Source: Streptomyces sp. AM 4-1-1
Lineage (GTDB): Bacteria; Actinomycetota; Actinomycetes; Streptomycetales; Streptomycetaceae
Assembly (NCBI RefSeq): GCF_029167625.1
Contig: NZ_CP119145.1
Location: forward strand, 2,294,001 to 2,358,000
Reading direction: 5' to 3'
DNA length: 64,000 bases
Shown here: positions 5,453-23,564 of the stretch, in pieces
How the letters are laid out: each line of letters begins with the position of its first letter
Numbering within the stretch: the stretch's first letter is position 1
The notes under the pieces: generated by a model
What the model was told of the DNA's origin: nothing
Seen by the model: only the letters and a program-made list of their open reading frames with translations
The model's database searches: none
Program-made: the position numbers and the translations under genes

Positions 5453-5487
5453 TGCAAAGGATGTGATCAATGTTACAATAAGTAACA
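5452..5487 (+). promoter_or_regulatory. Integrase promoter with overlapping palindromic operator
   Basis: TTGCAA (5452-5457), 16-bp spacer, TACAAT (5474-5479). The palindrome TGTTAC-AATAA-GTAACA (5471-5487) covers the -10 and start region. The -35 lies inside the attP arm, so integrase binding could also affect its own transcription. Confidence 0.7.
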
Positions 5488-5499
5488 GGAGATCACGCA

Positions 5500-7077: not shown

Positions 7078-7382
7078 CGGCAATACGTTCAAGTTGAGTG
7101 GGTCGAAGTTCAGGGGCATTTCGCAACTGAGCTTCGACCCATTTTTGTTCCGCAACCTCGGATGCCGAGTGCGGTTTCGCTTTTGCCGCCGCCTTGAGTT
7201 GTCGTACTTCCATAAATCGTTTCTCCGCTTACATTTCCCATTGTACTCCATCATCTATTCTCTGCGTTCGTTTCGGTGTTGTAGTTCGGACAAACTCTAT
7301 GGAATCATTCTTATGGGTAATGCATAATAAGTGTAGGGCCAAAAACAATCAGGCCCGGACCTACCCAACCAGTGGAGCAGAA
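7078..7382. other. Intergenic stretch without a convincing gene
   Basis: AT-rich interval after the integrase gene. Short open frames on both strands lack ribosome sites. A CATAAT at 7323-7328 could be a -10 for the 108-residue gene, but no good -35 is present. Confidence 0.5.
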
Positions 7383-7709
7383 ATGGCAATCGTGAGCCAG
7401 AAGGTCTCTGACCTTTCCGGTAAGCAGGGCGACGACAAGCAGTTTGCTTCGGTCGTCGTTCGGCAACACCCGGACATCGACCAGCCGAAGGCGCTGGACG
7501 TGCTCGTGCCGGAACTCAAGCAGTTCAACGACATCAGCGCGGACCTGGTGATCCTGGAGGTCACCATGCCCAACGGCGCCAAGCAGGACGTGTACGTACC
7601 CCTGGAGGAGTTCAACAAGGCTGCGCCCAACATGGGCGAAGTTCTCAAGAACGCTCGGGGCACGCGCGGTCGCGTTCCTGGTACTCGTGTCGGCAACGGC
7701 AACGGGTAG
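7383..7709 (+). CDS. Hypothetical 108-residue protein
   Basis: Begins MAIVSQKVSDLSGKQGDDKQ with GGAG 8 bases upstream; the frame is open from 7194 but the earlier part lacks a ribosome site and looks non-coding. The mid part (DISADLVILEVTMPNG) alternates like beta strands. The tail is Arg/Gly-rich (ARGTRGRVPGTRVGNGNG), suggesting nucleic-acid contact. A strong terminator follows directly. It may be an accessory factor of the integrase unit, including a candidate directionality factor, but this is positional inference only. Confidence 0.65.
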   Translation: MAIVSQKVSDLSGKQGDDKQFASVVVRQHPDIDQPKALDVLVPELKQFNDISADLVILEVTMPNGAKQDVYVPLEEFNKAAPNMGEVLKNARGTRGRVPGTRVGNGNG

Positions 7710-7755
7710 CCCCTAACTCCGCCTCCCGCCACCGCTCCCGGCGGTTGAGGCGGAA

Positions 7756-7800
7756 ATCCCGCTCCGATGACTTGAAGGTCGTCGGAGCGGGATCTTTCAT
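7756..7800 (+). terminator. Intrinsic terminator
   Basis: 16-bp stem (7756-7771 with 7778-7793, one G-T pair), 6-base loop, followed by CTTTCATTTCC. Ends the 108-residue gene transcript. Confidence 0.85.
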
Positions 7801-7821
7801 TTCCACCTAAAAACAACAGCA

Positions 7822-7850
7822 TTGCACCAAAGTCCATTAATTGTTATAAA
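7822..7850 (+). promoter_or_regulatory. Promoter giving probably leaderless Nudix mRNA
   Basis: TTGCAC (7822-7827), 17-bp spacer, TATAAA (7845-7850). The ATG of the Nudix gene is at 7858, 7 bases after the -10, exactly where transcription should begin; no Shine-Dalgarno is present. Confidence 0.7.
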
Positions 7851-7857
7851 TAAGTAC

Positions 7858-8397
7858 ATGGAAAAATGGAAAAGAAGCGAGCCGACGACAGTGCACAAAG
7901 TCGGATGGCGAGAAGTAGTCACTAAGACCTACTTGATGCCAAACGGCCAAAGAGCCGCCTTCGATACCTTCGGGCCGGAGGGACAACAGTTCGTTGCCGT
8001 GATCGGGCTGACACTCTCGAAAAAGGTGATCATAGCTCGACAGTTCCGCGTAGGCCCCGAAAAAGTCATGGACGAACTTCCCGGCGGATTCGTCGATGAA
8101 GGGGAGGGGCTAGAAATAGCCGCCCGTAGAGAGTTCCAAGAAGAGACAGGCTACGCGGCAGGCGCAATGACATACCTCGGTGGCTACAACAAAGACACCT
8201 ACATGAACGGCATATGGCATGTCTACCTCGCCACTGACTGCACATCTAACGGTGAGCAAGAGCTTGAGGACGAGGAGCACATAGAGATCGTTCTCATCAC
8301 CATTAAGGAGCTGATCTCTAACGCCAAGTCAAATAACATGACGGACGCCATAGCCGTCCTGAAGGCGTACGACCATCTTCAAGAACTCGACCAGTAA
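7858..8397 (+). CDS. Nudix hydrolase (ADP-ribose pyrophosphatase-like)
   Basis: 179 residues with a complete Nudix box (GX5EX7REUXEEXGU) at about 77-99: GFVDEGE then REFQEETGY, so the metal-binding glutamates are intact. An upstream LPGG turn and the overall length resemble ADP-ribose/NUDT5-type hydrolases, which split nucleoside diphosphate derivatives, though substrate cannot be read from sequence. ATG 7858 is preferred over an in-frame codon at 7822 because the promoter runs through that segment. Its own promoter and terminator make it a stand-alone unit. It may be a cargo or defence gene of the element. Confidence 0.88.
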   Translation: MEKWKRSEPTTVHKVGWREVVTKTYLMPNGQRAAFDTFGPEGQQFVAVIGLTLSKKVIIARQFRVGPEKVMDELPGGFVDEGEGLEIAARREFQEETGYAAGAMTYLGGYNKDTYMNGIWHVYLATDCTSNGEQELEDEEHIEIVLITIKELISNAKSNNMTDAIAVLKAYDHLQELDQ

Positions 8398-8417
8398 TCT
8401 TCTCACCACCCATCCAT

Positions 8418-8441
8418 GCGGCTCACAAGAGCCGCTTTTTC
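8418..8441 (+). terminator. Intrinsic terminator after Nudix gene
   Basis: Stem GCGGCT / AGCCGC with a 6-base loop, followed by TTTTT (8436-8440). Confidence 0.85.
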
Positions 8442-8842
8442 TATCAGTGCCAAGGCGCAGAGCGCGCGTCCATAGCAAGCAAGCGCCCATGACTATATCG
8501 ATACCGCAGTCACCCTTAAAACAACCACACCCAGTCGACGCCGGCGGGCGGGTGCAAAAGCGGAGCTACCAAGCCGATCTCGCGAAACGCTTATCAGGTC
8601 ATAACCTACTGCTCTCGGCAAGAGGGTTGCAAACTGGCAAGTATGTGACATAGCTAGCACACTATAATTCGGCAGCTTCGCCATGGTGGACTCGGCCTGT
8701 CAACGCGGTAAAGATCATTCCATAGGCTCAAACACTCTGGACATCGGCTGTAGCCCGTGGTCTAGCTACTTCCTACCCCTGTGTACTGGTTATGAGGGTC
8801 GCAAAACATAGATTGTGCGACACAAAATCGATTCTGAGTGCT
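8442..8842. other. 400-bp interval between convergent genes
   Basis: Holds no convincing gene. A perfect TATAAT hexamer lies at 8663-8668 without a clear -35, and the sequence around 8650-8662 is rich in GCTAGC-type palindromes. A short frame at 8447-8653 has no ribosome site or recognisable content. Confidence 0.45.
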
Positions 8843-9775
8843 CTACCGCTCCAGCTCCACGTCGAAGAACTTCATCACCGACGTGGCAAGCATGAGGCCA
8901 TAAATGGCATTGATCCGCGAGTACTGCGTACGCGAGACCCCGTGCGCGCTGGCATGCCTGGCGAACATGCGCGGAACTGGGTCGCCTTTGTCCGTCCAGT
9001 ACTCCGCGTACGCGTACCAGACAGGCGCAAAGGTCAAGGCCACGCGCACGTCATGGTCGTTGAGATCGAACTTGGCCTTGCTCTTCTTGTTGGACGTCAG
9101 CTTGACCCTGTCGCTCTTCTCGAAGTGAGAGTGCATCAGGCTGTCGAGCAAGTTGGCAGCCAGGGCCTGGGCGGGGTTAGTGTGCCCCGCTCTCAGGGCA
9201 GCGACGCAGTCGAGGGCGAAGTCTCGCACTTCCAGTAGATTTGGGTGGTCTACGCTCTTGGCGGCGGTCTCGCAGTCGTTGACGATCCCTCGCCACCGAC
9301 GTCCGATGATGCGGCGTCGCTCTACAGCGTCCTGCGCGTCTAGGAGAGCGCGCACCACCTTCGGCCCCGGCACCCACATGAGAGGGATGCCCTCTTCGAG
9401 AAGCAGTTCTTTTAGCTCCTTGAGGCGCGGCTCAGCGTCGCGCAAGTTCTCCGGATAAATCCGATCCTTCAGCGAACCGATCGATATGAAGAGGTTTCGC
9501 CACTGCTGTTGCAGGTGTTCGCTAGCGAACACCTCTCGGATTGGGGTGATTACACGAGAGAACTCCACGATCGACGGCGTCATCGCCTGCACGAAGCGAT
9601 GTGTGGGCATGACAATTTCTGTCAGCCGCTTCATCAGCTCAGCATTCTGCGCCCAGATGAGGTTGGTCATCGGCGGCATCACGTTGATCAAGCCAGAGAG
9701 ATAAGTTTCCTCCGGCTCAAGGCCCTCGTCGGGCTCGTTTGGCTCCTGGGTCACGGCACCATAGTTCCATGGCAT
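8843..9775 (-). CDS. HEPN-like domain protein, candidate RNase/defence gene
   Basis: 310 residues. No complete family match is recalled, but the C terminus (FARHASAHGVSRTQYSRINA, ~272-291) carries an R-X4-H motif followed by a helix. That resembles HEPN proteins (RNxxxH ribonuclease motif, as in RHAVLHG-type abortive-infection proteins). The N-terminal half is helical and charged. It starts 20 bases after parB on the same strand, so it is probably the third gene of the parA-parB operon; the start region has only a weak CTGG. Alternatives are a structural helical protein or a segregation accessory. Confidence 0.55.
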   Translation of the reverse strand: MPWNYGAVTQEPNEPDEGLEPEETYLSGLINVMPPMTNLIWAQNAELMKRLTEIVMPTHRFVQAMTPSIVEFSRVITPIREVFASEHLQQQWRNLFISIGSLKDRIYPENLRDAEPRLKELKELLLEEGIPLMWVPGPKVVRALLDAQDAVERRRIIGRRWRGIVNDCETAAKSVDHPNLLEVRDFALDCVAALRAGHTNPAQALAANLLDSLMHSHFEKSDRVKLTSNKKSKAKFDLNDHDVRVALTFAPVWYAYAEYWTDKGDPVPRMFARHASAHGVSRTQYSRINAIYGLMLATSVMKFFDVELER

Positions 9776-9794
9776 CCAGGCTATGGACTAGTGG

Positions 9795-10190
9795 TTACTC
9801 CCGTTTGTACTGCTTGCCGTAGTGCTTCACGACGTACTCTTCGAGCGCGTCCTCGATGATCTTCCACGGTCGACGCCCCTCGATGTACGCGACGTCCCGG
9901 ACGATCTGCGTGTGTCGCGTCGGGTACATGGCGAGTCCTCGACTGATGGGCTGTTCGTCGGTGTCGACTGGCGTCAGGTAGATCGGTCGCTCCGAGGCAG
10001 GCTCCTGGTCGCTCACTGCGGGGCGAACTGGCTCAGCGGGTTCTACCCGCTGCGGCACGGCGGGTGGTTCCGCTGGACTCGCCGTCGAGGCCGGCGCGGA
10101 TTTGGGTGCCTCGGGATCGACCTGCGGGATGGCAACACGAGGTGCCGTCGTCTTCCGCTCTGTCATCTGCTTCTTGAAATCTCTAGCCAT
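9795..10190 (-). CDS. parB: ParB-like ribbon-helix-helix partition protein
   Basis: 131 residues. The first ~80 residues are Pro/Ala/Glu-rich and disordered. The C-terminal ~45 (RHTQIVRDVAYIEGRRPW, IIEDALEEYVVKHY) fit a ribbon-helix-helix fold: one strand then two helices. Small RHH partners commonly act as centromere-binding proteins with a ParA ATPase. Its ATG overlaps the last 8 bases of parA (ATGGCTAG), and GGAG lies inside the parA end, so translation is coupled. Confidence 0.75.
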   Translation of the reverse strand: MARDFKKQMTERKTTAPRVAIPQVDPEAPKSAPASTASPAEPPAVPQRVEPAEPVRPAVSDQEPASERPIYLTPVDTDEQPISRGLAMYPTRHTQIVRDVAYIEGRRPWKIIEDALEEYVVKHYGKQYKRE

Positions 10191-10959
10191 TAGTCAGTAT
10201 CTCCGCGACCCGCTTATACCCTTGCGCGGCGTGACTCTGCGGGTCATAGATCACTACCGGCTGGTTCAGTTGCTCGGCTTCATCCACTGCGGTGGATTCC
10301 ACGATGAGCTGAGGGATCACGAGGTCTTTGTACGCCTCCCCTATCCCGTCGAAGACAGCCGAGGACGCGAGCGTGCGCTTAAAGCGCGTGACCAAGATGC
10401 CCCGGAGCCGTAGCGAAGGGTTGTAGCTCCCCACTGCTCGCTCATACGCCTCGATGGTGCGAGCCAAGCCGTCTTGGCTGTACGCACTCGCTGCGGCTGG
10501 GATCACCAGCTCGTCAGCCGCCGCCAGGGCGTTGATAGTCATGTAGTTCAACGACGGTGGGGTGTCGAGGATGATGAAGTCGTAGTCATCTTCCAGCTCT
10601 GCGAGCAGTCCCTTAAGCGCCGCGATCGGATCAGGTGCCGTCGGATCAGTCCGTTGCAGCGCCATACCCGTTTCAGTACGCGACAAGTCCGGGTGCCCGG
10701 CTATCAGATGAAGGCCGTCAACCAGCGTCTTCACCACAGCCGAGGGCGTCTCGATCTCAGGACTCACGAACAAGTTGTTCAGCGTGACGGGTAGATCGGC
10801 GGGATCAATCCCCAGTCCTTTTGTGGCGTTGGCCTGTTCGTCCAAGTCCACCAACAGGGTTCGATGACCAGCAAGCGCCATCGCAGCAGCGATGTTCTTA
10901 GCGGTTGTCGTCTTCCCTACGCCACCTTTATGGATGGCTATTGCGATTTTCTTTGCCAT
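10183..10959 (-). CDS. parA: ParA family partition ATPase
   Basis: 258 residues. A deviant Walker A (HKGGVGKTTTAKN) near residue 10, a switch I segment (LLVDLDEQANATKGLG, ~35-50) and Walker B (DFIILDTPPSLNY, ~127) identify a type Ia-like or small ParA/Soj ATPase without an N-terminal HTH. It should form nucleoid-bound gradients that move the element's centromere complex, implying a replicating or extrachromosomal phase. ATG 10959 has GGAG 12 bases upstream, a long spacing. Confidence 0.93.
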   Translation of the reverse strand: MAKKIAIAIHKGGVGKTTTAKNIAAAMALAGHRTLLVDLDEQANATKGLGIDPADLPVTLNNLFVSPEIETPSAVVKTLVDGLHLIAGHPDLSRTETGMALQRTDPTAPDPIAALKGLLAELEDDYDFIILDTPPSLNYMTINALAAADELVIPAAASAYSQDGLARTIEAYERAVGSYNPSLRLRGILVTRFKRTLASSAVFDGIGEAYKDLVIPQLIVESTAVDEAEQLNQPVVIYDPQSHAAQGYKRVAEILTNG

Positions 10960-11028
10960 TATTCATTTGTTCTCCACTTTCAAGATAACACGAGCACTCA
11001 TCCCCTCACAATAGCTATCACCCTTTCC

Positions 11029-11119
11029 CGCGCGCATTCTCTAGTGAGCTATAGAACTCTATAGTTCTATAGCTCACTCTTTCTATAACGCGTGAGCTAT
11101 TGAATTAACGCGCGCATTC
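11029..11119. repeat. Palindrome/direct-repeat cluster upstream of parA (candidate centromere)
   Basis: A 36-bp palindrome (11043-11078, two 16-bp arms around CTAT) contains AGTGAGCTATAGAACT. A further half-copy, GTGAGCTAT, lies at 11092-11100. An 11-bp direct repeat, CGCGCGCATTC, occurs at 11029-11039 and 11109-11119, 80 bp apart. The cluster sits between divergent parA and the 69-residue gene, the usual place for a parS/parC site that doubles as operator. An origin of replication is the alternative. Confidence 0.7.
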
Positions 11120-11154
11120 AATTACAATAGAAAGCGTAAGAGAAAGCATGAAAG

Positions 11155-11364
11155 ATGAAGCACAGTCACACGATCACTCACGACATGATTGGGACGCACG
11201 CCAGAGCCTTCGTAACAGGGGTGCTCGGCCTCGATCCAAAGCAGCACCAGCTAACCAGTCAGCCGACATGGATACGGCTCGCTGAACGGCTCTTAGGAGC
11301 TCCCAGACAAGCCGAGCCGGCCAGCACGCTAGGTCGGCGTTATCAAACCAAAGCAGAACGATAG
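11155..11364 (+). CDS. Small hypothetical protein upstream of RHH gene
   Basis: 69 residues, His-rich N terminus, WIRLAERLLG amphipathic helix, no recognised domain. Its stop codon is 9 bases before the next start and overlaps that gene's ribosome-site region, suggesting a two-gene operon. A competing overlapping frame from ATG 11149 (45 codons) is possible; neither has a strong ribosome site. Moderate confidence only. Confidence 0.4.
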   Translation: MKHSHTITHDMIGTHARAFVTGVLGLDPKQHQLTSQPTWIRLAERLLGAPRQAEPASTLGRRYQTKAER

Positions 11365-11373
11365 GAGGACGGC

Positions 11374-11586
11374 GTGAACCAACCGACACTACTCAAAGAC
11401 CACATGCCTACAAGTAGGGAAGTGGAGAAAACCGTAAAACCACTTGTGGTTAAGTACACAACGCATCTCCCCGCCGACATGGTGAAGCAAATCAAGCTTC
11501 GGGCTGTGGAACGGGAAGTGAAGGACTACCAGCTCGTAACGCAAGCCGTACGAGAGTTCCTGAGTAGGCAGGAGCTTGCCGCTTGA
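11374..11586 (+). CDS. Ribbon-helix-helix DNA-binding protein
   Basis: 70 residues. The pattern KPLVVKYTTHLP (strand) then DMVKQIKLRAVEREVKDYQL and VTQAVREFL (helices) is CopG/Arc-like. Start GTG 11374 follows AGGAGG at 11363-11368. Divergent from parA across the palindrome cluster, it is a good candidate for a regulator or centromere-binding factor acting there, or for an integrase directionality factor. Confidence 0.7.
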   Translation: MNQPTLLKDHMPTSREVEKTVKPLVVKYTTHLPADMVKQIKLRAVEREVKDYQLVTQAVREFLSRQELAA

Positions 11587-11619
11587 TCTTCTCGGGAGGA
11601 AGTGCATAATGGGTAATAT

Positions 11620-11862
11620 ATGAGCGAAGATCAATTTACCAAAATTTTCAACCACATGCAAAGCGAGTTCGGCAAAGTACATGCGCGCTTAGACGACATG
11701 GCCACCAAGCAGCAGTTTGAATACCTCATCGAAATGGTGGACGGAATCGCCAAAGTGGTCGAGGACGACCAAACAGAAAGAGCAGCCCTTACCCAACAGG
11801 TCGGCCGCGTTGAAGACGACGTGCGAGCACTCCAGAAGCATCTAGGTCTCGCGCAGTCATAA
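11620..11862 (+). CDS. Small coiled-coil protein
   Basis: 80 residues with heptad-like hydrophobics (KIFNHMQSEFGKVHARLDDM; VGRVEDDVRALQKHLG), resembling short DUF-type coiled-coil proteins of plasmids. A candidate promoter TTGATC-N16-CATAAT (11583-11588, 11605-11610) puts transcription start at or next to the ATG. Upstream, AGGAGG precedes a 4-codon frame (ATG 11609) that overlaps the gene start as ATGA, an alternative route of translation. Confidence 0.65.
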   Translation: MSEDQFTKIFNHMQSEFGKVHARLDDMATKQQFEYLIEMVDGIAKVVEDDQTERAALTQQVGRVEDDVRALQKHLGLAQS

Positions 11863-11877
11863 AGCCGCAAATCCGTC

Positions 11878-11902
11878 AGCCATTTTCTAGGGTGGCTTTT
11901 GT
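11878..11902 (+). terminator. Probable intrinsic terminator
   Basis: Short stem AGCCA / TGGCT (11878-11882, 11893-11897) followed by TTTGTTTTG, after the coiled-coil gene. Confidence 0.55.
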
Positions 11903-12040
11903 TTTGTTTGCAAATTCAAGTAATTCCAATTATACTTATGGCAAGCTAGCGTCTAGCATTCAGTGCCAAAGAATTTATGCGCTAGCCTATCGGTTTTGGG
12001 GGTATTTTTCTATCCGTTCTTATTTCGCGCAAAAATAGAC

Positions 12041-12128
12041 TTGCATGTTTTGTTGCAATTGTTTACTATTGAATTAGCACTGAAGTTAGACGCATTCGGA
12101 GCCCTCGAAAGAGGGCTCTTGTCTTTTC
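12041..12128 (+). ncRNA. Candidate ~50-nt small RNA with own promoter and terminator
   Basis: Promoter TTGCAT (12041-12046), 17-bp spacer, TACTAT (12064-12069); predicted start ~12076. A perfect terminator hairpin GAGCCCTC-GAAA-GAGGGCTC (12099-12118) with TTGTCTTTTC follows at once. A complete tiny transcription unit with no room for a normal gene; it may be a regulatory RNA or a premature-termination leader for the downstream gene. Confidence 0.55.
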
Positions 12129-12182
12129 TAAGAACCCTTGCCACCACACAGGTACGCCGAGCCGTTCAAACCAACAGTTAGT

Positions 12183-12226
12183 ACCCCCGTAATGGGGACG
12201 GTTTTGTGTTGCCCAAAATCGGGGGT
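12183..12226 (+). promoter_or_regulatory. Leader hairpin before 174-residue gene
   Basis: ACCCCCG (12183-12189) pairs with CGGGGGT (12220-12226), and inside it GTTTTG pairs with CAAAAT. The structure ends directly before the GAGGAG ribosome site and could modulate initiation. Confidence 0.45.
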
Positions 12227-12239
12227 GAGGAGAAACAGC

Positions 12240-12764
12240 ATGGCTGAAAGCATCAAAGCAACATTAACGCGCCGAGAGTTCTATAGAAATAAGGCAAGCG
12301 AAAGCGCCTCCGTTACTTCTATAGAAGGACAGGAGATTCCACAGGAAGTAGACGACCTGATCGACAACAAGATGTACCGCAACAAGTTCAAGTCGCTCAT
12401 TCGCAAGGGACACTTGCAAGACTTGATCGACCTGGCAGAAGTTGCCAAGGATAAGGACACGCCGAGCCGTTGGTTCGCCAAGTCCACCAGGACGACCCCT
12501 GTACCAGGGAGCGAGGGCAAGCCAACCCACTGGGAGCGCTCGTTGAAGTTCCTGGCCAAGCTGCGCAAGGTACGTCGTGTCGTGCAGCAGATCGGCGGCC
12601 GTCTCAAGGTGCCAGCGAACAGCGTGAACGCTGTCTTCAAGGCTGCGTGGAAACACCAGGACGCCGCCGTACGTCTGTCAGTCGAGGCGGCCGAGAGAGG
12701 GAAGACCGACTCGTTCAAGTACTTCTGCCGGATCGCGTTGAATCCCAAGACCACCGCTGCATAG
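12240..12764 (+). CDS. Hypothetical basic protein, 174 residues
   Basis: Starts at ATG 12240 after GAGGAG (12227-12232); the frame is open from 12138 but earlier codons lack a ribosome site. Strongly basic and helical (NKMYRNKFKSLIRKGHLQDL; FLAKLRKVRRVVQQIGGRLK), with no motif recognised. Such basic proteins in actinobacterial mobile elements may be replication or relaxosome accessories, but no homologue is recalled. It follows the tiny RNA unit and a structured leader. Confidence 0.75.
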   Translation: MAESIKATLTRREFYRNKASESASVTSIEGQEIPQEVDDLIDNKMYRNKFKSLIRKGHLQDLIDLAEVAKDKDTPSRWFAKSTRTTPVPGSEGKPTHWERSLKFLAKLRKVRRVVQQIGGRLKVPANSVNAVFKAAWKHQDAAVRLSVEAAERGKTDSFKYFCRIALNPKTTAA

Positions 12765-13227
12765 CGCTGAGACCTCATGAGAGCGCGTGTGCGCGCGTCC
12801 AGCGTTGAAGACAGGTTCAGTCCCGTCTGACCCGCGCGCCCACCTTACAGAGCCTCTGAGACCGTCGTTCGCGCAGAAGACGGCCGAGTCCACCGACAGC
12901 CCCTCGTCGCGTAGATCGCGACCACCCAGGCCGCGCCGGCCACGGCCCTAGGTTGGGGTTGTTCAACGCGTACCGCGGTCCCCCTGATACGTCTCGTTCT
13001 ACCGAGACTTCCTAGTGCTGATGATGGTTGCGTTCTTGCCGCAGTCGGCGCAGGCGGATGAACGCGACAGTCCCTCCGCCGCCTGGCGGCAAGTGAGCAC
13101 CCGCGACTATCAGGCCCCGCAGGTCGCGGTAGAACGAGCCCACTCAGGCGACGCCGGCGGGAGCCTCCAGGTCGCCTCCACTCAGGGATGTGCCTGGCGG
13201 GGGTGGTCACGAGCGGTCGGCAGACTG
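12765..13227. other. GC-rich patch without clear gene
   Basis: Base composition returns to host-like values. No frame has convincing start, ribosome site and content. Minus-strand frames around 13010-13140 give short Arg-rich or CADCGKNATI-type pieces, possibly decayed coding DNA. A 12-bp inverted repeat CTCGTTCTACCG lies at 12993-13004 and 13127-13138. Confidence 0.45.
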
Positions 13228-13749
13228 TTATTCCTTGCTTGGTGAACGCCATGCGCTCGATGTCTCGTGGCCGAACAACTGCTTGTAGACCTCTCCCTCA
13301 TGTTCCTGATTCAGGAGAAGGATTGAACGCGTCTGCAAGGTGGACTTCATGGCAGTACTGAGCATTAACGAATCTCGGTAGATCGTAAGGATCGCTTCGT
13401 TGGAGTCGTCGCGCGCAATCCTGTTGATCGAGACCTTGTGGCAACTAGCGCAGACGTGAATGAGCATCAGCTCACCTTGTTTGCCGTAACCCTCGTTCTT
13501 GAAAGTGAGACCAATCGGTTCCATACCTGCATGACAGGTCGCCTGGCGGTCACCCTTCGATTGGTCGACGTGCTTCGACCATAGGCAGTGATCGCAGTGG
13601 TTCCGGTTTGCCGTGCCTATGAACGGATTGATGACAACCCAGCGCTTGCAGTGAGAGCAACGGAATCCGCCAGCTCTATCCTCTTGTCGCCTTTGCAGCG
13701 ACTTGTTTTCTTCATTTCCGTAGCGTTTATCATGGTGATGGTGTTTCAC
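13228..13749 (-). CDS. RNHCP-domain zinc protein
   Basis: 173 residues. Cys/His pairs FRCSHC, RNHCDHCLWSKHVD, ATCHAGMEPIGL and VCASCHKVSINR match the RNHCP family, here with RNHCD in place of RNHCP. The spacing suggests two zinc sites. Family function is not established as far as recalled. The first ~28 residues are His/Lys-rich and the last ~65 form an extension beyond the usual ~90-100-residue domain. Start GTG 13749 has AAGGA 8 bases upstream (13758-13762). The gene lies behind a terminator/antiterminator leader with its own peptide, so expression probably depends on translation state. Confidence 0.85.
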   Translation of the reverse strand: MKHHHHDKRYGNEENKSLQRRQEDRAGGFRCSHCKRWVVINPFIGTANRNHCDHCLWSKHVDQSKGDRQATCHAGMEPIGLTFKNEGYGKQGELMLIHVCASCHKVSINRIARDDSNEAILTIYRDSLMLSTAMKSTLQTRSILLLNQEHEGEVYKQLFGHETSSAWRSPSKE

Positions 13750-13765
13750 AAAATAGATCCTTAAT

Positions 13766-13855
13766 CACAAAAACCAGCCGCTTGGCTGGTCGCTGGATAG
13801 CTAGATGCTATTTTGAAAAGATGTGAAGTAAAGTGACGTTAGAGGACCAGCCAAG
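13766..13855 (-). promoter_or_regulatory. Attenuator: mutually exclusive antiterminator and terminator
   Basis: In transcript order: segment 1 CTTGGCTGGTC (13855-13845, inside the leader peptide's last codons), segment 2 GACCAGCCAAG (13791-13781), segment 3 GGCTGGT (13779-13773) followed by TTTTTG. Segments 1 and 2 pair perfectly over 11 bp. Segments 2 and 3 pair as ACCAGCC-AAGC-GGCTGGT, forming an intrinsic terminator. The two structures cannot coexist. A ribosome finishing the leader would cover segment 1 and favour termination. Confidence 0.75.
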
Positions 13856-13913
13856 AATACCCTTCTTCAAGGGCGACTGACACAATGATCATTTGTCGTC
13901 GATTACTTACCAT
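13839..13913 (-). CDS. Leader peptide of the RNHCP attenuator (24 residues)
   Basis: ATG 13913 to TAA 13839. It has a basic N-terminal part (SNRRQ), then a hydrophobic stretch (MIIVSVA), and ends SWLVL; the codons TCT TGG CTG GTC include attenuator segment 1. The predicted transcription start is 0-3 bases from the ATG, so translation is leaderless or nearly so. A second in-frame ATG at codon 8 would give 17 residues. Role inferred: ribosome position on this peptide selects between terminator and antiterminator. Confidence 0.65.
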   Translation of the reverse strand: MVSNRRQMIIVSVALEEGYSWLVL

Positions 13914-13921
13914 ACGTAGCT

Positions 13922-13950
13922 ATTATCTCAAAATATCGCGCATTCGTCAA
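13922..13950 (-). promoter_or_regulatory. Promoter of RNHCP leader
   Basis: On the minus strand TTGACG (13950-13945), 17-bp spacer, GATAAT (13927-13922). One of the closest consensus matches in the window. Confidence 0.8.
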
Positions 13951-14032
13951 TGGGGGAAATCACTTTGGGAAAGCACCAACCTTGACGTAGTTGGCGTGAG
14001 AGCTTATAGCTCAACGATCACGACCCGCGCGA

Positions 14033-14692
14033 CTACTCTTCGAGCGAACTATCCTTCAGGTCGGCGCTGACGACAGTAGTTCCTTTCACCAGTGACCCGC
14101 AGACAATGCCGCCGCTGGTGACTTTAGCTGACTCGTAGATCCTGGCGTACTCCTTGACGATTGCCGTACCGGAGATCTGTGCCCGTTCGAACACCGCAGC
14201 GTTTCCCGAAACCGTGGCTTGGCCAAGGACTTCAGCTCTGCCGTAGATCCAAGACTTTCCAGAAACTTTCGCGTTCCCGTGAATCTCTGCGTAGTTCCAG
14301 GCCCTTGCGGCTCCGAAGACCTCTGCACAGCCCCACACTATGGCGTGGTCATATACGGCGGCGTCCTCATAAACGAGGGCGTTTCCGTGCACCTGAGCGT
14401 GTCCATAGACGATCGCGCTGTCGTACACCTTTGCGTCTTCTGACACGACGGCGAAACCCTCGACCACGGCTCGATCGGTGACGATCGCTCGGTCTTTGAC
14501 CACCGCGTTGTCGCTGACGTAAGCACCACCAGTCACTTGAGCCGTTCCAAGCACCTTGGCCCGTCCGCTGACGCGAGCACCAGTAGTAACGCGTGCTTCG
14601 TCTGCGACGAAAGCTGTTTCGGCCACCCATCCGCCTCCGTTGCGATGACGGCGATAGCGAATACCGCTGATGTCACGCATCTCATTTTCCAC
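14033..14692 (-). CDS. Hexapeptide-repeat left-handed beta-helix protein
   Basis: From ~residue 30 nearly the whole 219-residue protein is a six-residue periodic array (e.g. ARVSGRAKVLGTAQVTGGAY, AIVYGHAQVHGNALVYEDAA), the signature of a left-handed beta helix with roughly ten coils. Similar repeat proteins include acyltransferase-like folds, polymer-forming cytoskeletal proteins and some phage proteins; no catalytic His motif is seen. Start GTG 14692 is chosen because AAGG lies ~10 bases upstream. The frame stays open to 15010, and GTG 14857, 11 bases after the upstream stop, is an alternative start that would add 55 residues. Confidence 0.75.
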   Translation of the reverse strand: MENEMRDISGIRYRRHRNGGGWVAETAFVADEARVTTGARVSGRAKVLGTAQVTGGAYVSDNAVVKDRAIVTDRAVVEGFAVVSEDAKVYDSAIVYGHAQVHGNALVYEDAAVYDHAIVWGCAEVFGAARAWNYAEIHGNAKVSGKSWIYGRAEVLGQATVSGNAAVFERAQISGTAIVKEYARIYESAKVTSGGIVCGSLVKGTTVVSADLKDSSLEE

Positions 14693-14715
14693 GTTTTCGC
14701 CTTTCAGGTCGGATA

Positions 14716-14743
14716 TTCTGCGGCGCAAGATTGCGCCGCAGAA
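14716..14743. repeat. 28-bp perfect palindrome upstream of beta-helix gene
   Basis: TTCTGCGGCGCAA-GA-TTGCGCCGCAGAA, two perfect 13-bp arms, 24 bp before the chosen GTG. There is no T-run on either side, so it is a less likely terminator; it could be an operator or a translational hairpin. Confidence 0.8.
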
Positions 14744-14868
14744 GACCGACTTCAAAAACGAAAATGGGGCGGTACTGAGGTGACGGCTCAGAGCGGCGAG
14801 ATCTGTCAGCTTGAAGCGGGCCTTCACCCTCGCGCCGGCCCTGCTGTCTTGGAGCACACGATCTAGAG

Positions 14869-15054
14869 CTAGGTGGTTGCTATCAAATATGCGCTGATGG
14901 TCGTCGCAATCATAGCCGCTAGGACGAAGTCGCTTTGAGTCTGGCGACTCTTCGCGCGGACTCGGCGCACTTGCACGCGTCTGCGGAGTGCTGGTTCCCG
15001 AGGTCCCCACGCAAGCATTTCGATCAGGGGTTGTTTACGTTCTCGGCGAGCCAC
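14869..15054 (-). CDS. Small tail-anchored membrane protein
   Basis: 61 residues: very basic N-terminal two thirds (MARRERKQ; ALRRRVQVRRVRAKSRQTQ) and one C-terminal membrane helix (FVLAAMIATTISAYLIATT). GTG 15054 has AAGGA ~9 bases upstream and a strong promoter ~60 bp before it. Probably first gene of an operon with the beta-helix gene. No family recognised. Confidence 0.6.
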   Translation of the reverse strand: MARRERKQPLIEMLAWGPREPALRRRVQVRRVRAKSRQTQSDFVLAAMIATTISAYLIATT

Positions 15055-15115
15055 GGTTCGTTTTCCTTGGAGAAGCCATTACTAGCGCTTGTCCGATATG
15101 TTTCGTATCTATTCT

Positions 15116-15162
15116 ATTATAAACCTTCCACCTCTGTTGATCAACAACTTCTACCTCTGTTG
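15116..15162 (-). promoter_or_regulatory. Promoter with direct-repeat/palindrome operator
   Basis: Minus strand TTGATC (15144-15139), 17-bp spacer, TATAAT (15121-15116). A 12-bp palindrome TGTTGATCAACA (15135-15146) covers the -35. Two copies of CAACAGAGGT (15139-15130 and 15162-15153 on the minus strand) are 23 bp apart, on one face of the helix. Confidence 0.7.
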
Positions 15163-15185
15163 GCGATGTAGAAAAAACATCACCA

Positions 15186-15866
15186 TCAAAGCTGTATGAG
15201 CTGAGGTATTAATTCGGCAAACAGGAACACTCGCACCATCTCCTGTTGTTCTGCCGGTAGCCCACGGATGATACGTCCAATCTCCGCCTTACGAGCTTCG
15301 TGTCTGACGACGAAAACAACGAAAGGGAAGTCGTTGGCCTCGCTGGACTCAGCCGCTCGCCAATATCCTTGGATTTTTTCTCGGATGCGTATGGGCGCCT
15401 CGGTGCTCAGGTCGATCTCAAGAAAGTACGCCCCGCTGCGTTGTTGCTGCGGGAAGTCGACTGCCACGAACAAGTCGGCGCGAACTGAGGGAGGGACTGG
15501 GAGTTCTATCTCCCAGCGCGTGAGGTTGAGAACGCCCGCTTTCTCTGCCCGTCGAAGTTCGAGGTAGGTGTCAGCAATCATCAGGGCATGATTGTTGACG
15601 TTGGGCGACAAGCGCCCCTCGACGCCAAGTAGTGTCCGGCCGTACCGGCCAAGTTGATACGTATAAGCCCCTGAGCCGCCTTGTAGCCCTGTTGCGCGCC
15701 TTCCAACCCGTGACAGGTAGCGAAGACGCGTCAAACGTCCTAGAACCACGTCAGGGACGCTATGTGATCTATCGAAGAAGACCAGCTCTTTCAAATGCGT
15801 TGACGATAGTTGGGTGAAAGTGTGAACAAGTGACAGGATGGTGAGGTCTCGGGTAGTAAGTTCCAT
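15186..15866 (-). CDS. Replication-relaxation (Replic_Relax) family protein
   Basis: 226 residues. The N terminus (LTTRDLTILSLVHTFTQLSS, then VLGRLTRLRYLSRVGRR) is a winged-helix-like segment typical of Replic_Relax proteins. The C-terminal half (FLEIDLSTEAPIRIREKIQG, FPFVVFVVRHEARKAEI) resembles the nuclease-like fold of that family. These are encoded next to VirD4/TraD-type ATPases in Gram-positive mobile elements and are thought to act in DNA processing for transfer or replication. Start ATG 15866 (MELTTRD) is preferred because GGAG lies 8 bases upstream; ATG 15890 lacks one. Confidence 0.82.
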   Translation of the reverse strand: MELTTRDLTILSLVHTFTQLSSTHLKELVFFDRSHSVPDVVLGRLTRLRYLSRVGRRATGLQGGSGAYTYQLGRYGRTLLGVEGRLSPNVNNHALMIADTYLELRRAEKAGVLNLTRWEIELPVPPSVRADLFVAVDFPQQQRSGAYFLEIDLSTEAPIRIREKIQGYWRAAESSEANDFPFVVFVVRHEARKAEIGRIIRGLPAEQQEMVRVFLFAELIPQLIQL

Positions 15867-15906
15867 TATGTGTGCTCCGTGGATAGTCATGCGCTGATAG
15901 GTGGGG

Positions 15907-15990
15907 GCGTACCCCCTGGTCAGGGGGTACGCAGGTACAGGGATGCACCTAGGGCTGACCTGGGCTGATCCTGGGGGGCATCCCTGTACC
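15907..15990. repeat. Nested inverted repeats, candidate oriT
   Basis: GCGTACCCCCTG-GT-CAGGGGGTACGC (15907-15932, perfect 12-bp arms) is followed by GGTACAGGGATGC (15934-15946) pairing with GCATCCCTGTACC (15978-15990). This fills the gap between the coupling ATPase and replication-relaxation genes, a common oriT position; an mRNA processing or translational-control structure is the alternative. Confidence 0.6.
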
Positions 15991-15998
15991 GGGAACGA

Positions 15999-18305
15999 CT
16001 ACGGATGCCAGCTCCCGCCGCCGAAACGGCGTTTGATAGAACGCTTGGCTTTCACCTTCGCGCCGCGTCGTTGCGCGATCTCTCGTTCAACGTCGGCGAT
16101 CGGCCGCCCGTAGCTCTTCCGTGAGAGTTGTCGCACCCTTTCGGCAATGCCAGTGGTATCAACCGGCGGCAAGGTCAGTGCCGTTGCGGGAGGACTCACG
16201 CCCGCGCTGGTAGCCAGCCGCATAATGACCTCGAACCGACCTTGGTTCATGAAGTCTTCATCTGTGACGTTACGGCCAAACTGGCGGGCGAAGTGCTTTG
16301 CATCGTCCGCCGAGGTCTGAAAGACCACTGTTGACCGGGCGTTGGTCTGCGTGGCTTCCTGCAACTCCTTCGAGAGCTGCCCGATGTGCTGGTGAGCAAC
16401 GGTCATCGCCAGGCCAAGGCTGCGGGCCTGAGCGAACATGTCGGCCGGTGCAATCGGGAGGTTCAAGAAGTCTTGAAACTCGTCGAGGTACAGCATCGTC
16501 GGGTTTCTAGGGTTGGCCGCTCCACCCTGTACGGCGCTCCACACGTAGTTCAGGATGAGGCTGCCGAGAAGTCCGGCTGTCTCCTTTCCCTCCGTAGCGC
16601 GGCCGAGATTGACAAGCAGGATCTTTTTCCCTCGGATCACCTCGTGCATGTCGATGGTGCTTTGGCTCTGGCCGATGATGTTCCGCAACGACCGCCGAGA
16701 CGTGAGCTGCCACGTTCTGTCGGTGAGCGGCTTGAAGTAATTCTCTCGCTGCTGTCGTGACAGGCGTTGGATGTCCTGCCACCAACCCGCCAGCTCCTCA
16801 AGGTGTGAGACGCCAGCAATCAGATTGTTCGCGAACTCCTCTTGGTCTACTCTCGGAACGCTGAGAGCCCCGATGTCCGCGAATGTCATGGGGCGCTCGG
16901 CGTTCGTGCTCATCAAGAGGGTCAGGATCAGGTGGTAGAACCCCTGTCTTACGCGCACTCCCCGGGCATCCTGTGGGTACAGGTGGTCGAAGAGTCGTTG
17001 AATCTCCGAGGCCACGGCGTAGGGGTTACCTTGTAGCAGGTTGAAGCCGACCGGATAGGCCGTGTCAGTCACGTCCAGGAGCACGACGTCTTGAAGCCGG
17101 TGTTCTGGTACCCGTGCGAGTGCTTCGTTGAACAGGTCGCCCTTACTCTCGATCAGGACAACCCCGCGGCCGGCTCGCATGTCCTGAGCAATCAAGTTGT
17201 TCAGAAGAACCGTCTTACCTGACCCTGTCGGGCCGACGACTTGAAGGTGTTGCGCAGACTCCACCGGGGTTAAGGCGAGAGGTCGTTCGCCTCCTGGGAA
17301 GTTGGACTCTCCGATGATCCGGCCCTTCAACGCGATCACAGCCGATGCCGGAAGGTGCCGCGTCCTTGAGCGGGGGAGCCGTGAAAGGTGTGGTGCCCCG
17401 ATAGGCCAAGCCACCAAGCTCCCCAGTTCGCTCGCTGAGAGCTGCGCCGGGTAGACCATTAGCGAGCTTGCCTCGGCGACTCGCTTGATGGCCCCACTTT
17501 CCAACCCGATCCGCTTACGGAACCCGTTGTGAGCCGTCCTGATACTCGCAAGCGTGGCCTTGATCGGAGCGATCAGACTTGCCGCGTGCTGCTTGTTGAA
17601 GCCCTTCGCCGCGATGCGAAGAACTCCCACGAAGTTCGGCTCACTCAGCTTGGTTCGGCGGTCGGTAATTTCGTCATGTCCAGCGTTCTGTGAACCTGAC
17701 AGGATCTGTCCGACCATGCTGAAGTGGTTGCTGTGCTGTTCGCGCCCGAGGGCGGGAGGAGCCTGACGTACAGCAGGCGCCACCACCCATTGATAGAGCA
17801 GTTCTTCACCCCTGCCGAGGCTGTCCATCGCTGTGAGAACACTTGTGGAGATGGTCTCGGCGTTCTGGATGTCGAGGGTGCGGTCTGGGTGCGTGTGGCC
17901 AAGCTCCACTGCGGCCATCCACTGGTGAGCTGGTTCATCCGTCTCCGGCGTTGCCGTCATCCCAGGCACAAGTGAGCGCAGTTGGGGAACGATAAACCGC
18001 TCTTGGTGACGCGGTACTCGTATCCAATGGCTGATCTCCCGATCGTTCGCGCGCACCTCGAAGACCACGGAGGGAAGGCCCATCAGTCGACGGGGGCCAC
18101 TGTGGAGGGTGCCACTTATCCGTTTGATCCACTCAGTTACCTGAGCGGCGGTCAGGTCAGCCGGAAAAGTGAGCCGATAGGTCACTCGTTCATCGGTCTG
18201 TGCTGCCATGCCCTTGAGTCCCATCAAAAAGGCGCTGTATAAGAGCGCCAGGCCAACTGACGTGATGATGGAAGTGATGAGACTCATTCCCATCCATTTT
18301 CTCAC
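15999..18305 (-). CDS. VirD4/TraD-like conjugative coupling ATPase
   Basis: 768 residues. An N-terminal membrane segment (MSLITSIITSVGLALLYSAF) leads to a ~300-residue extension, then the ATPase core with Walker A GPTGSGKTVLL (~358), Walker B MLYLDEFQDFL (~603), and a TraD/HerA-type C-terminal part (ARSLGLAMTVAHQHIGQLSK, ARSTVVFQTSADDAKHFARQ). It should couple processed DNA to the cell-cell channel. This differs from the FtsK-like TraB of classical Streptomyces plasmids. Start GTG 18305 is uncertain; ATG 18293 or 18287 are in frame and nearer a purine run. Confidence 0.88.
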   Translation of the reverse strand: MRKWMGMSLITSIITSVGLALLYSAFLMGLKGMAAQTDERVTYRLTFPADLTAAQVTEWIKRISGTLHSGPRRLMGLPSVVFEVRANDREISHWIRVPRHQERFIVPQLRSLVPGMTATPETDEPAHQWMAAVELGHTHPDRTLDIQNAETISTSVLTAMDSLGRGEELLYQWVVAPAVRQAPPALGREQHSNHFSMVGQILSGSQNAGHDEITDRRTKLSEPNFVGVLRIAAKGFNKQHAASLIAPIKATLASIRTAHNGFRKRIGLESGAIKRVAEASSLMVYPAQLSASELGSLVAWPIGAPHLSRLPRSRTRHLPASAVIALKGRIIGESNFPGGERPLALTPVESAQHLQVVGPTGSGKTVLLNNLIAQDMRAGRGVVLIESKGDLFNEALARVPEHRLQDVVLLDVTDTAYPVGFNLLQGNPYAVASEIQRLFDHLYPQDARGVRVRQGFYHLILTLLMSTNAERPMTFADIGALSVPRVDQEEFANNLIAGVSHLEELAGWWQDIQRLSRQQRENYFKPLTDRTWQLTSRRSLRNIIGQSQSTIDMHEVIRGKKILLVNLGRATEGKETAGLLGSLILNYVWSAVQGGAANPRNPTMLYLDEFQDFLNLPIAPADMFAQARSLGLAMTVAHQHIGQLSKELQEATQTNARSTVVFQTSADDAKHFARQFGRNVTDEDFMNQGRFEVIMRLATSAGVSPPATALTLPPVDTTGIAERVRQLSRKSYGRPIADVEREIAQRRGAKVKAKRSIKRRFGGGSWHP

Positions 18306-18336
18306 ATCAGCGTGTGTATGAGGTGTGTAACTTTTA

Positions 18337-18495
18337 CTACCACCGCGTCATGCGGTAATAGACGAATCCCAGCACCATCACGATGGCGAGCATTCCGATC
18401 ATGTAGGGAATGAACGGCTCAACCACCCACCACAGCACGCGGATCGTCAGCGCGGCGAGCAGCAGGGTCAGGAGGTAGCTCCGGGCTTTTTTCAT
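18337..18495 (-). CDS. Small two-helix membrane protein
   Basis: 52 residues with two hydrophobic segments (LLTLLLAALTIRVLWWVV; YMIGMLAIVMVLGFVYY). Start ATG 18495 (MKKARSYL) follows a GAGAG; a longer frame to 18567 begins with TTG and no site. It lies 31 bases before the coupling ATPase gene in the transfer operon, so it may be part of, or regulate, the transfer channel. Confidence 0.65.
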   Translation of the reverse strand: MKKARSYLLTLLLAALTIRVLWWVVEPFIPYMIGMLAIVMVLGFVYYRMTRW

Positions 18496-18685
18496 GGGGT
18501 GGTCTCTCTGTTGGGTACCGCCGACCTGAGGGTCGGGGCCGGCGTGAGGTTGGTCGGCGCGGTTCAACGACGAGGCCCCCGCCCCTCAGGTCGCGGTGAG
18601 TAGGTGTGGCACTGGCCAGCGAGTGGCTGCCTTCACTTACGGGCGACGTGCGGGGCGGGGGCTGTTGTCAGATCCAGGGCGTTGG

Positions 18686-18925
18686 CTACGAACGCCGCTT
18701 GCCGCGTTCCTCCTTGGCGAGTTCGTTGAGGACTTCGCGGAAGAGGTCTGTGTCGCTGGAGCGGTTGCGGACGATGGTCTCTATCTCGCGTTTGCGCTGT
18801 ACACGCTTGGGTCGTTCACTCGACGTGTCGAGTCGAGAAAGCGCCCAGAGCACCAACACGATCAGGATGAAGGCGACTACCCCACCTCCGGCTGCTTGGC
18901 CGCCCTCGCTTGCTGCGTGGAACAT
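18686..18925 (-). CDS. Single-helix membrane protein of transfer operon
   Basis: 79 residues: short Gly/Ala N terminus outside, membrane helix (GVVAFILIVLVLWALSRL), then a basic cytosolic tail (RPKRVQRKREIETIVRNR) ending in an acidic-basic helix. AAGGGG lies 12 bases before the ATG. No family recognised; the gene order suggests a channel accessory similar in position to Spd proteins. Confidence 0.65.
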   Translation of the reverse strand: MFHAASEGGQAAGGGVVAFILIVLVLWALSRLDTSSERPKRVQRKREIETIVRNRSSDTDLFREVLNELAKEERGKRRS

Positions 18926-18940
18926 GAAGAACGATTCCCC

Positions 18941-19153
18941 TTACTCAGCTCGATGGTTCTTAGCGACGTCGCGCATCTGCCGCATCGTTTCGTGCTTGCG
19001 CTGCCGCATGTTCACGTACAGCTCGGTGGCGCTGCGTTCCATCTTCTTGCGCTGTTCGTTGCGTTGGGTCGTCCGCTCCCAAATCGCGGCGATGCCGAGC
19101 AATACACCGCTGAGAGCCAAGCCGCTCAGAAAGAGCAGGATTTCGACCGTCAT
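18941..19153 (-). CDS. Single-helix membrane protein with coiled-coil tail
   Basis: 70 residues: N-terminal membrane helix (ILLFLSGLALSGVLLGIAAI) followed by a Arg/Glu-rich coiled coil (ERTTQRNEQRKKMERSA). The ATG overlaps the stop of the preceding gene by one base (TGATG), so the two are translationally coupled. Confidence 0.7.
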   Translation of the reverse strand: MTVEILLFLSGLALSGVLLGIAAIWERTTQRNEQRKKMERSATELYVNMRQRKHETMRQMRDVAKNHRAE

Positions 19154-19494
19154 CAGATTCCCAGTCCGTTGCCGAAGGAACGGATGTCGCGCCCAGTTTG
19201 ACGCGCGTACTCCTGCACGATCTTGTGCAGCTCCGCGCCGATGTACGGGTCACCAGCCGCCAGTTGCTGGGCCAGCCCCACCACGTCGGTGATGTCGTGC
19301 ATGGCGTTCTCGGTCAAGCGGGTGCGCAGTGCAGCGGTGAACTCCTGCTTCTGCGCCTCGTACAGCAGGTTCGTCCGGTCACGGTCGGCGCGAGCCTGGA
19401 GCGCTCGCTGCTCCTTGGACGGCCGGGCCAGCCAGCCGCCGCGTCCGCGTCCCTCCTGTTGTCCGCCTCCACCAAGCATCAGTTCGCTACCCAT
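19153..19494 (-). CDS. Hypothetical helical protein, first gene of transfer operon
   Basis: 113 residues: Gly/Arg-rich N terminus (GGGGQQEGRGRGGWLARP) then amphipathic helices (RDRTNLLYEAQKQEFTAALR). No family recognised. It heads a six-gene minus-strand run reaching the replication-relaxation gene. The 18-bp inverted repeat 80-125 bp upstream is a likely control site. Confidence 0.65.
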   Translation of the reverse strand: MGSELMLGGGGQQEGRGRGGWLARPSKEQRALQARADRDRTNLLYEAQKQEFTAALRTRLTENAMHDITDVVGLAQQLAAGDPYIGAELHKIVQEYARQTGRDIRSFGNGLGI

Positions 19495-19573
19495 GGTGTT
19501 GCCTCCATCTCGCTGTCGTCGCTGGATCGTTTGATCCCTGCATCAACAGTTCGCCGGCGGGAGGGGTCTGGTC

Positions 19574-19618
19574 ACTGCAACGGCACTGCAACGACCCAGC
19601 TTGCAGTGCCGTTGCAGT
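19574..19618. promoter_or_regulatory. 18-bp inverted repeat built from direct repeats, between divergent operons
   Basis: ACTGCAACGGCACTGCAA (19574-19591) is repeated inverted at 19601-19618, 9 bp apart. Each arm itself contains ACTGCAA twice, so four half-sites occur in 45 bp. It separates the transfer operon from the bitopic membrane-protein gene and probably binds a regulator of both; an origin iteron set is the alternative. Confidence 0.75.
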
Positions 19619-19672
19619 AGTGCTGTCGGTGCATACTGCGACTCAGGAACGACGGCCGCGGAGGGGTGGAAC

Positions 19673-20902: not shown

Positions 20903-20930
20903 GGCACCTTTGGGTTGAAGCCGCTTATTC

Positions 20931-20958
20931 TTGCATTAATTTTCAATTCCTTCATAAT
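20931..20958 (+). promoter_or_regulatory. Promoter of 65-residue gene
   Basis: TTGCAT (20931-20936), 16-bp spacer, CATAAT (20953-20958). The predicted leader contains a small CCTCG / CGAGG hairpin before an AAGGGG ribosome site. Confidence 0.65.
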
Positions 20959-21003
20959 ACGCCTCGGCTAGATGCCGCGAGGATCTATGAAGGGGACTAC
21001 CTG

Positions 21004-21201
21004 ATGTTCCGCAGGCAACGCAACCGCAAAACCCAGGTCGAAGAATCCACAAACGCCATCGTTCTTGACGACGACCTCATGGACGATCTGACTACGGACC
21101 TACGCGCCATCGCAGCCCGCTACCGCCAGAACGGCCAACCTGGCCACGCCAGCGTGGTTGATCGAATCGTCAACGAGATCGATCCCACCACCAACAACTG
21201 A
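21004..21201 (+). CDS. Small hypothetical protein
   Basis: 65 residues: basic N terminus (MFRRQRNRKTQ), acidic middle (LDDDLMDDLTTDLRAIAARY), helical end. AAGGGG 9 bases before the ATG, own promoter and a strong terminator make it a monocistronic unit. No family recognised. Confidence 0.7.
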   Translation: MFRRQRNRKTQVEESTNAIVLDDDLMDDLTTDLRAIAARYRQNGQPGHASVVDRIVNEIDPTTNN

Positions 21202-21240
21202 CGCAACCCAACCGCGCCAGTCATCACAACCCCGCACCGC

Positions 21241-21289
21241 AACGAAGAACACCCCGTGTCCGTTGTGGACGCGGGGTGTTCTTCGTTTT
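21241..21289. terminator. Strong bidirectional terminator
   Basis: 21-bp stem (21241-21261 with 21267-21287, one G-T pair), 5-base loop, TTTT after it on the plus strand. Lies between convergent genes. Confidence 0.88.
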
Positions 21290-21310
21290 GTGGTGCGGGC
21301 CAGAAATCAC

Positions 21311-23540: not shown

Positions 23541-23564
23541 CTCGCCAGCTTGATCGTCAGCATC

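Follow-up and report, generated by a model that had tools for sequence, protein, structure and literature searches.

A likely ribosome-mediated transcription attenuator ahead of an RNHCP gene in a Streptomyces mobile element and in Saccharibacteria

A survey of premature terminators (excerpts of PMC2965389) forms the background to the leader described here. At bmrB-bmrCD of Bacillus subtilis, transcription readthrough occurs under ribosome-targeting antibiotics, according to excerpts of the original report (PMC4191407). In Streptomyces coelicolor, lincosamide, streptogramin A and pleuromutilin antibiotics inhibit translation of the tiaA and are5sc upstream ORFs (uORFs) at its start, as stated in excerpts of PMC12421871. 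In mycobacteria, leaderless Cys-rich small ORFs have been proposed as cysteine attenuators (excerpts of PMC4633059), which were the subject of a 2020 study as reported in excerpts of PMC9031893. Here we describe a real and conserved leader ahead of an RNHCP gene, most likely a ribosome-mediated transcription attenuator.

Leader and mobile element in the window

The locus lies in a 64,000-nucleotide stretch of Streptomyces DNA (the window), which is part of a 7.17-Mb contig, the genome totalling 7.47 Mb, and all leader features described below are on the minus strand. The RNHCP gene (13228..13749, GTG start at 13749) encodes a protein of 173 aa, belonging to a subfamily found in Saccharimonadales. 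The protein scores 90.2 bits against the Pfam PF12647 profile, whose curated cut-off is 24, and its conserved Cys/His motifs suggest a zinc protein.

The preliminary description had placed a consensus promoter and, at the predicted transcript start, a 24-codon leader ORF upstream of RNHCP, and both are present. The promoter TTGACG-17-GATAAT, with TG ahead of the -10 box, lies at 13922..13950 and scores 10/12 against the consensus. Scanning a 1-kb stretch for promoters returned one, where shuffled sequences gave 0.6 on average; by itself, the window promoter is thus unremarkable. The leader ORF (MVSNRRQMIIVSVALEEGYSWLVL, 13839..13913) begins with an ATG 8 nt after the -10 box, and this spacing predicts that it is leaderless, the transcript start being itself predicted.

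Hairpin H1 (CCCTT-GAAG-AAGGG, 13860..13873, 5 Watson-Crick pairs) is located within the leader ORF, and the last codons of the ORF contain segment 1 (CTTGGCTGGTC, 13845..13855), the 5' arm of the antiterminator. The stop codon (UAA) begins 3 nt beyond the GGTC end of segment 1. Hairpin H2 (ATAGC-ATCTA-GCTAT, 13797..13811) stands between segments 1 and 2, and immediately 5' of segment 2 is the invariant CTATCCAG (13793..13800), which is identical in all four leaders compared below and whose CCAG is accounted for by neither helix. Segment 2 (GACCAGCCAAG, 13781..13791) is common to antiterminator and terminator. Its perfect 11-bp pairing with segment 1, as described earlier, is borne out by 11 Watson-Crick pairs (13855-13845 with 13791-13781). 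Segment 3 (GGCTGGTT, followed by T5, 13769..13779) forms the 3' half of the intrinsic terminator. The terminator had been described with a 7-bp helix and T5; the T5 stands, but the helix (13791-13772) has 8 pairs, one of them G-U. The Shine-Dalgarno AAGGA (13758..13762) and the RNHCP start follow, in agreement with the same description.

Such an arrangement seldom occurs in shuffled sequence. Any terminator appears in 35 of 3000 dinucleotide shuffles of the leader, and an overlapping antiterminator of at least 7 bp in 2 of the 3000 (7 and 9 bp). The 11 bp of the real leader is reached by 0 of the 3000, the best being 9 bp. Meanwhile, the minimum free energy fold of the leader lies 3.4 standard deviations below the shuffles, of which 2 in 200 fold as well.

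The leader and RNHCP are carried by an integrative element of about 18 kb, approximately 5447..23764, delimited by a GC drop, Pfam matches and a split host gene. The GC content is 55-62% at about 5.45-23.76 kb, against about 66-76% outside. A serine recombinase gene (5500-7077) stands at the opening of the element, and Pfam further identifies a ParA-like gene (10183-10959), a Replic_Relax gene (15186-15890) and a T4SS coupling-type ATPase gene (15999-18305). The element splits a host ABC-transporter ATPase gene into a front part (23715-24080) and a rear part (4753-5457), with the break near GVVFGQ / RTTLWW. A repeat search gave no clear att pair, and the ends of the element are approximate. 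As a separate observation, plasmid relatives of the coupling-type ATPase are distant, with about 31-33% identity among the top matches.

Elsewhere in the window, we notice a Guanidine-III riboswitch (44.7 bits, 34494-34558, minus strand) shortly upstream of an ORF for a small membrane protein (LLLIAGLLEVAWSIGMKYTEGF..., about 34103-34430, minus strand). By eye this ORF is of the small multidrug-resistance type, and we take it to be probably a guanidinium exporter.

RNHCP relatives and conservation of the leader

The window RNHCP has 472 protein matches, of which the best 120, its own included, were listed. The other matches listed share 52-64% identity with the query across 77-98% of its length, apart from one fragment (73% over 65%), and the organism names among them are four Candidatus Saccharimonadales MAGs and one Streptomyces caniscabiei. 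A search of 394 Actinomycetes-class genomes gave 262 bits for the window protein itself and 97 bits for the runner-up; RNHCP proteins are widespread, with 69 of these genomes, the window's own included, having a match at E 1e-10. Nine of 392 Saccharibacterial-class (Saccharimonadia) genomes contain a match, six of them weak (50-61 bits) and three strong (206-256 bits). The three strong loci are referred to as L035, L038 and L088; the L088 genome (G650) belongs to the same class, and to the same family as the L038 genome. The RNHCP proteins of the window, L035, L038 and L088 are 51-58% identical.

In a 38-protein tree, in which 13 of 35 inner branches are open and several rows are long, support of 95/85 places the window RNHCP beside P0002 and P0003 (a Saccharimonadales MAG); P0017 (S. 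caniscabiei) belongs to a different group. This fits an entry of the RNHCP gene from a Saccharibacteria-like source, perhaps twice. Plasmids and phages gave distant RNHCP matches only, and the A1 patterns found no RNHCP in viral contigs.

Several other RNHCP loci deserve mention in their own right. The window's genome has a second, weak match (28 bits; G000:C1:4257230-4257379, L002) without this leader. Tandem pairs of RNHCP genes, spaced by a few hundred bases, occur in many Streptomyces (392 same-genus genomes searched; e.g. G048:C25:56818-57514 and G036:C1:593217-593912), and their relationship to the window protein is more distant. In the G650 genome, a 111-aa ORF (L145 10723-11058, plus strand) lies 81 nt 3' of RNHCP on the same strand, where cotranscription is possible. 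In the G470 genome, an ORF resembling an aminoglycoside phosphotransferase by eye (L144 15756-16868, plus strand) lies about 5 kb from RNHCP. Literature searches by the name RNHCP and by PF12647 returned no paper about these proteins, the name matches being unrelated chemistry.

A search of homologous RNHCP loci had been proposed as a check of the preliminary description. It revealed the pairing, the spacing and the upstream ORF to be conserved in three Saccharibacterial relatives: among the 392 Saccharibacterial-class genomes, the same leader with matching spacing occurs at 3 of 3 strong loci. Leader ORFs of 28 (L088), 30 (L038) and 32 codons (L035) stand at the corresponding place, and the order of ORF, H1, segment 1, H2, CTATCCAG, segment 2 and segment 3 is common to the three. 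Next come a T run of at least five, a stretch resembling a Shine-Dalgarno sequence, and the start of RNHCP. The leader ATG lies 156-165 nt from the RNHCP start in all four leaders. Eleven contiguous standard antiterminator pairs are present in the window, L088 and L035, and nine in L038, which has lost two of the eleven at the far end. A terminator scan found the terminators of the window, L038 and L088; that of L035 was missed by the scan, its helix and T run being present by sequence. In L088, positions 1369-1384 (plus strand), consisting of H1 and then TATCTTT, were also flagged as terminator-like.

A covariance model (R1) was built from the four leaders, on which it scores 97-127 bits. Over the 392 Saccharibacterial-class genomes, R1 gives hits in 41 at E 0.1, all below 29 bits except the three known loci; over 87 RNHCP loci it matches just the four, and it finds no second copy in the whole Streptomyces genome. 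Eight of the weak loci (L098-L105) were read and rejected: they looked like normal terminators, T-rich sequence or coding sequence, and their neighbours were unrelated. Among the 82 distinct RNHCP genes delimitable by script, a set from which genes with an unplaceable start were dropped, six are preceded by a terminator at a distance of up to 250 nt. Upstream of 4 of the 82, namely those of the window, L035, L038 and L088, the terminator is overlapped by an antiterminator of at least 8 bp. The leader had no match in plasmids and phages. Two short leader patterns matched 15 and 7 viral contigs, which were discarded with a best R1 score of 15 bits, and a third matched no viral contig. The gene appears to have moved together with its leader.

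Superimposed on this common order, the four leaders diverge unevenly. Identity is 25-46% (13/52 to 19/41) across the gapped linkers, against 24/36 to 30/34 in the 3' block of segments 2 and 3 and 16/29 to 27/30 in the block from H1 to segment 1. Both partners are replaced in two of the eleven antiterminator pairs (U-A to C-G, U-A to A-U), and these two pairs lie outside the terminator. In the antiterminator alignment, 98% of cells pair, falling to 18-49% when it is slid by 1-3 columns; the covariation is equalled by 38 of 500 column shuffles, and we regard it as supportive, not decisive. On the alignment of the four leaders, the terminator shows one-sided changes only and H2 shows no two-sided change. 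Four H2 pairs are invariant in 4 of 4, and the fifth is C-G in the window, T-A in L035 and L038, and unformed in L088. H1 retains 5 Watson-Crick pairs in all four through three arm versions (CCCTT/AAGGG, CCCCT/AGGGG, AGCCC/GGGCT; aligned by hand), and might serve as an early pause or weak terminator.

The proposed switch and its alternatives

On the basis of these features, whose presence, conservation and mutually exclusive pairing the sequence shows, we propose that transcription would start at the leader ATG or a few nucleotides from it, judging by the distance to the -10 box. Normal translation past about codon 17 would cover segment 1, whereupon segment 2 would pair with segment 3 and transcription would end ahead of RNHCP. 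A ribosome stalled in the first ~16 codons, or failing to start, would leave segment 1 free to pair with segment 2 once the latter is made (11 bp), and RNHCP would be transcribed. The signal would be impaired translation, as under ribosome-targeting drugs, and not shortage of a single amino acid, and RNHCP would act as a translation-stress response protein. Leader translation, readthrough and signal are what we infer. The whole reading, in which a ribosome-mediated transcription attenuator responding to impaired translation drives RNHCP and the module was carried between Saccharibacteria and Streptomyces mobile DNA, is built on four leader sequences, and we give it a probability of about 0.72.

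In a co-transcriptional model with RNA only up to segment 3 and no ribosome, P(1:2) is 0.97-1.00 in the four leaders. With the ribosomal A-site at codons 2-15 it is 0.93-1.00, and it drops between codons 16 and 20 in all four; in the window it is 0.00 from codon 17 onward, as far as the stop. In the window and L088 the 1:2 helix does not re-form before the stop codon is reached. In L035 and L038, whose stop is more distant from segment 1, a ribosome at the final few codons would uncover segment 1 again and the helix comes back; the stop lies 23 nt past segment 1 in these two leaders, 11 nt in L088 and 3 nt in the window. Beyond the earlier reading, the model also gives the antiterminator in the absence of any leader translation.

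The full-length equilibrium differs in part. In the ribosome-free RNA, the terminator is preferred by the window leader, L038 and L088 (P 0.97-1.00), and L035 alone stays antiterminated. The window antiterminator then needs a stall at codons 2-7, codon 8 giving equal odds; L038 shows a mixture, and L088 is terminated in almost all cases, early stalls rarely favouring the antiterminator. The claim that an early stall yields the antiterminator and normal translation the terminator thus holds for four of four leaders in the co-transcriptional model, but the equilibrium agrees with it only partly, so the switch must be kinetic and needs kinetic trapping. In such a switch, the 1:2 helix can form first and is stronger than 2:3 (-15.5 to -19.8 against -10.4 to -13.1 kcal/mol in the four leaders).

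The alternative that fares best, although we consider it unlikely, is that a ligand or protein (a riboswitch, or RNHCP on its own leader) sets the choice between 1:2 and 2:3, the open frame being incidental. Conservation of CTATCCAG and of the H1-to-segment-1 block beyond the needs of pairing speaks for such binding. The frame by itself is weak evidence of translation: open frames this long are not rare, and its openness has a chance probability of 0.14-0.36 in each leader, with a product of 0.0019 for four leaders that are not independent. Moreover, the window has one nucleotide fewer than the other three between H1 and segment 1, a difference that changes the reading of its final codons and brings UAA to 3 nt beyond segment 1; the C-terminus of its peptide is out of frame relative to L035, L038 and L088. 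On the other hand, a candidate -10 hexamer ends just before the ATG in all four leaders, by 8 nt in the window, 10 nt in L035, 8 nt in L038 and 7 nt in L088. The candidate promoters of L035 (11/12) and L038 (9/12) were found by scan, and that of L088 (TTGGCT-17-TACTAT, 8/12) was read by eye and is weak, below the scan threshold. The distance from ATG to the CCC of H1 varies by three only and preserves the frame (40, 43, 40 and 43 nt across the four leaders; L038 by eye), and segment 1 lies inside the ORF in 4 of 4. In addition, no Rfam covariance model matches 13740-13960 up to E 10. Translation of the leader ORF, for which its place near the predicted start, the position of segment 1 and the ATG-to-H1 distance speak, is only moderately supported.

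Less probable still is a classical amino-acid attenuator, in which starvation for one amino acid would stall the leader ribosome and open RNHCP. The segment logic is that of trp-type attenuators, and consecutive Thr codons near codons 8-10, three in L038 and two in L035, stand where a stall would free segment 1, which leaves amino-acid sensing conceivable in these two. However, the Thr run is not common to the four, L088 having one Thr at this position and the window Met-Ile-Ile. The window leader has Arg-Arg and Ile-Ile at most. No codon run is common to all four leaders, so single-amino-acid sensing looks unlikely, and in the three stretches examined none of the genes after RNHCP is biosynthetic. 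The Thr runs, together with the KTK end of the L038 peptide, raise this alternative slightly and lower the translation-stress reading. Least credible is a leaky terminator that acts constitutively, came along with the gene and is alike in the four through common descent, with no part in regulation, for which the joint movement of gene and leader and the small number of examples (four) would speak, since the 3' and H1-to-segment-1 blocks remain alike between proteins of 51-58% and linkers of 25-46% identity, and the antiterminator carries compensatory changes.

Comparison with known attenuators

For the translation-stress reading, translation stress or antibiotics fit best as the signal by analogy with bmrCD, tiaA/are5sc and mef/msrD. 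An attenuator of the translation-inhibitor-response type would offer a testable hint of when one RNHCP subfamily is needed, and hints that RNHCP answers ribosome stress. It also provides a sequence-tagged regulatory unit common to Patescibacteria and a Streptomyces mobile element. Cultivated members of the Saccharibacteria grow on actinobacterial hosts, according to excerpts of PMC10633639. We tentatively speculate that this RNHCP subfamily protects, rescues or modifies stressed ribosomes, that the dedicated leaderless attenuator is a new RNA family, and that the sensor-plus-effector unit was exchanged between Saccharibacteria and mobile elements of Streptomyces, perhaps as a defence against antibiotics from the host community; this wider picture is possible but doubtful. 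A literature search on attenuators in Saccharibacteria or Patescibacteria had none among the matches listed.

By architecture, the leader is close to bmrB-bmrCD, which according to excerpts of PMC4191407 likewise combines a leader ORF, an intrinsic terminator and a predicted alternative antiterminator, but has a multidrug ABC transporter as its target and its terminator inside the leader ORF. In excerpts of PMC12421871, tiaA and are5sc, from the same genus as the window, have a short uORF with a terminator and antiterminator. They differ in their ABCF targets and in very short uORFs (MLV, MVGDDDISG) with ribosome binding sites, whereas the RNHCP leader ORFs have 24-32 codons and are apparently leaderless. 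Ribosome-mediated transcription attenuation also acts at msrDL-msrD and mefAL, there ahead of a resistance operon; as described in excerpts of PMC10314930, the stalled ribosome obstructs the terminator directly, and mefAL carries a +x+ macrolide motif. By eye, an Arg/Lys-X-Arg/Lys motif is absent from the leader peptides of the window, L035 and L088, and L038 has KTK as its last three residues only, past segment 1.

The mycobacterial attenuators likewise place a small ORF, leaderless there and predicted to be so here, before the regulated gene in actinobacteria (excerpts of PMC4633059 and PMC9031893). In these excerpts they respond to cysteine via Cys codons, whereas the leader peptides of RNHCP are without Cys in 4 of 4; the target gene is also another one, and the relatives of the RNHCP leader are found in Saccharibacteria. 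Ribosome-mediated transcription attenuation is thus the known part, and RNHCP as its target and the cross-phylum spread are the new parts. What surprises us is this target, together with an apparently leaderless arrangement in a lineage of the Patescibacteria and the occurrence of the complete unit on mobile DNA of a Streptomyces.
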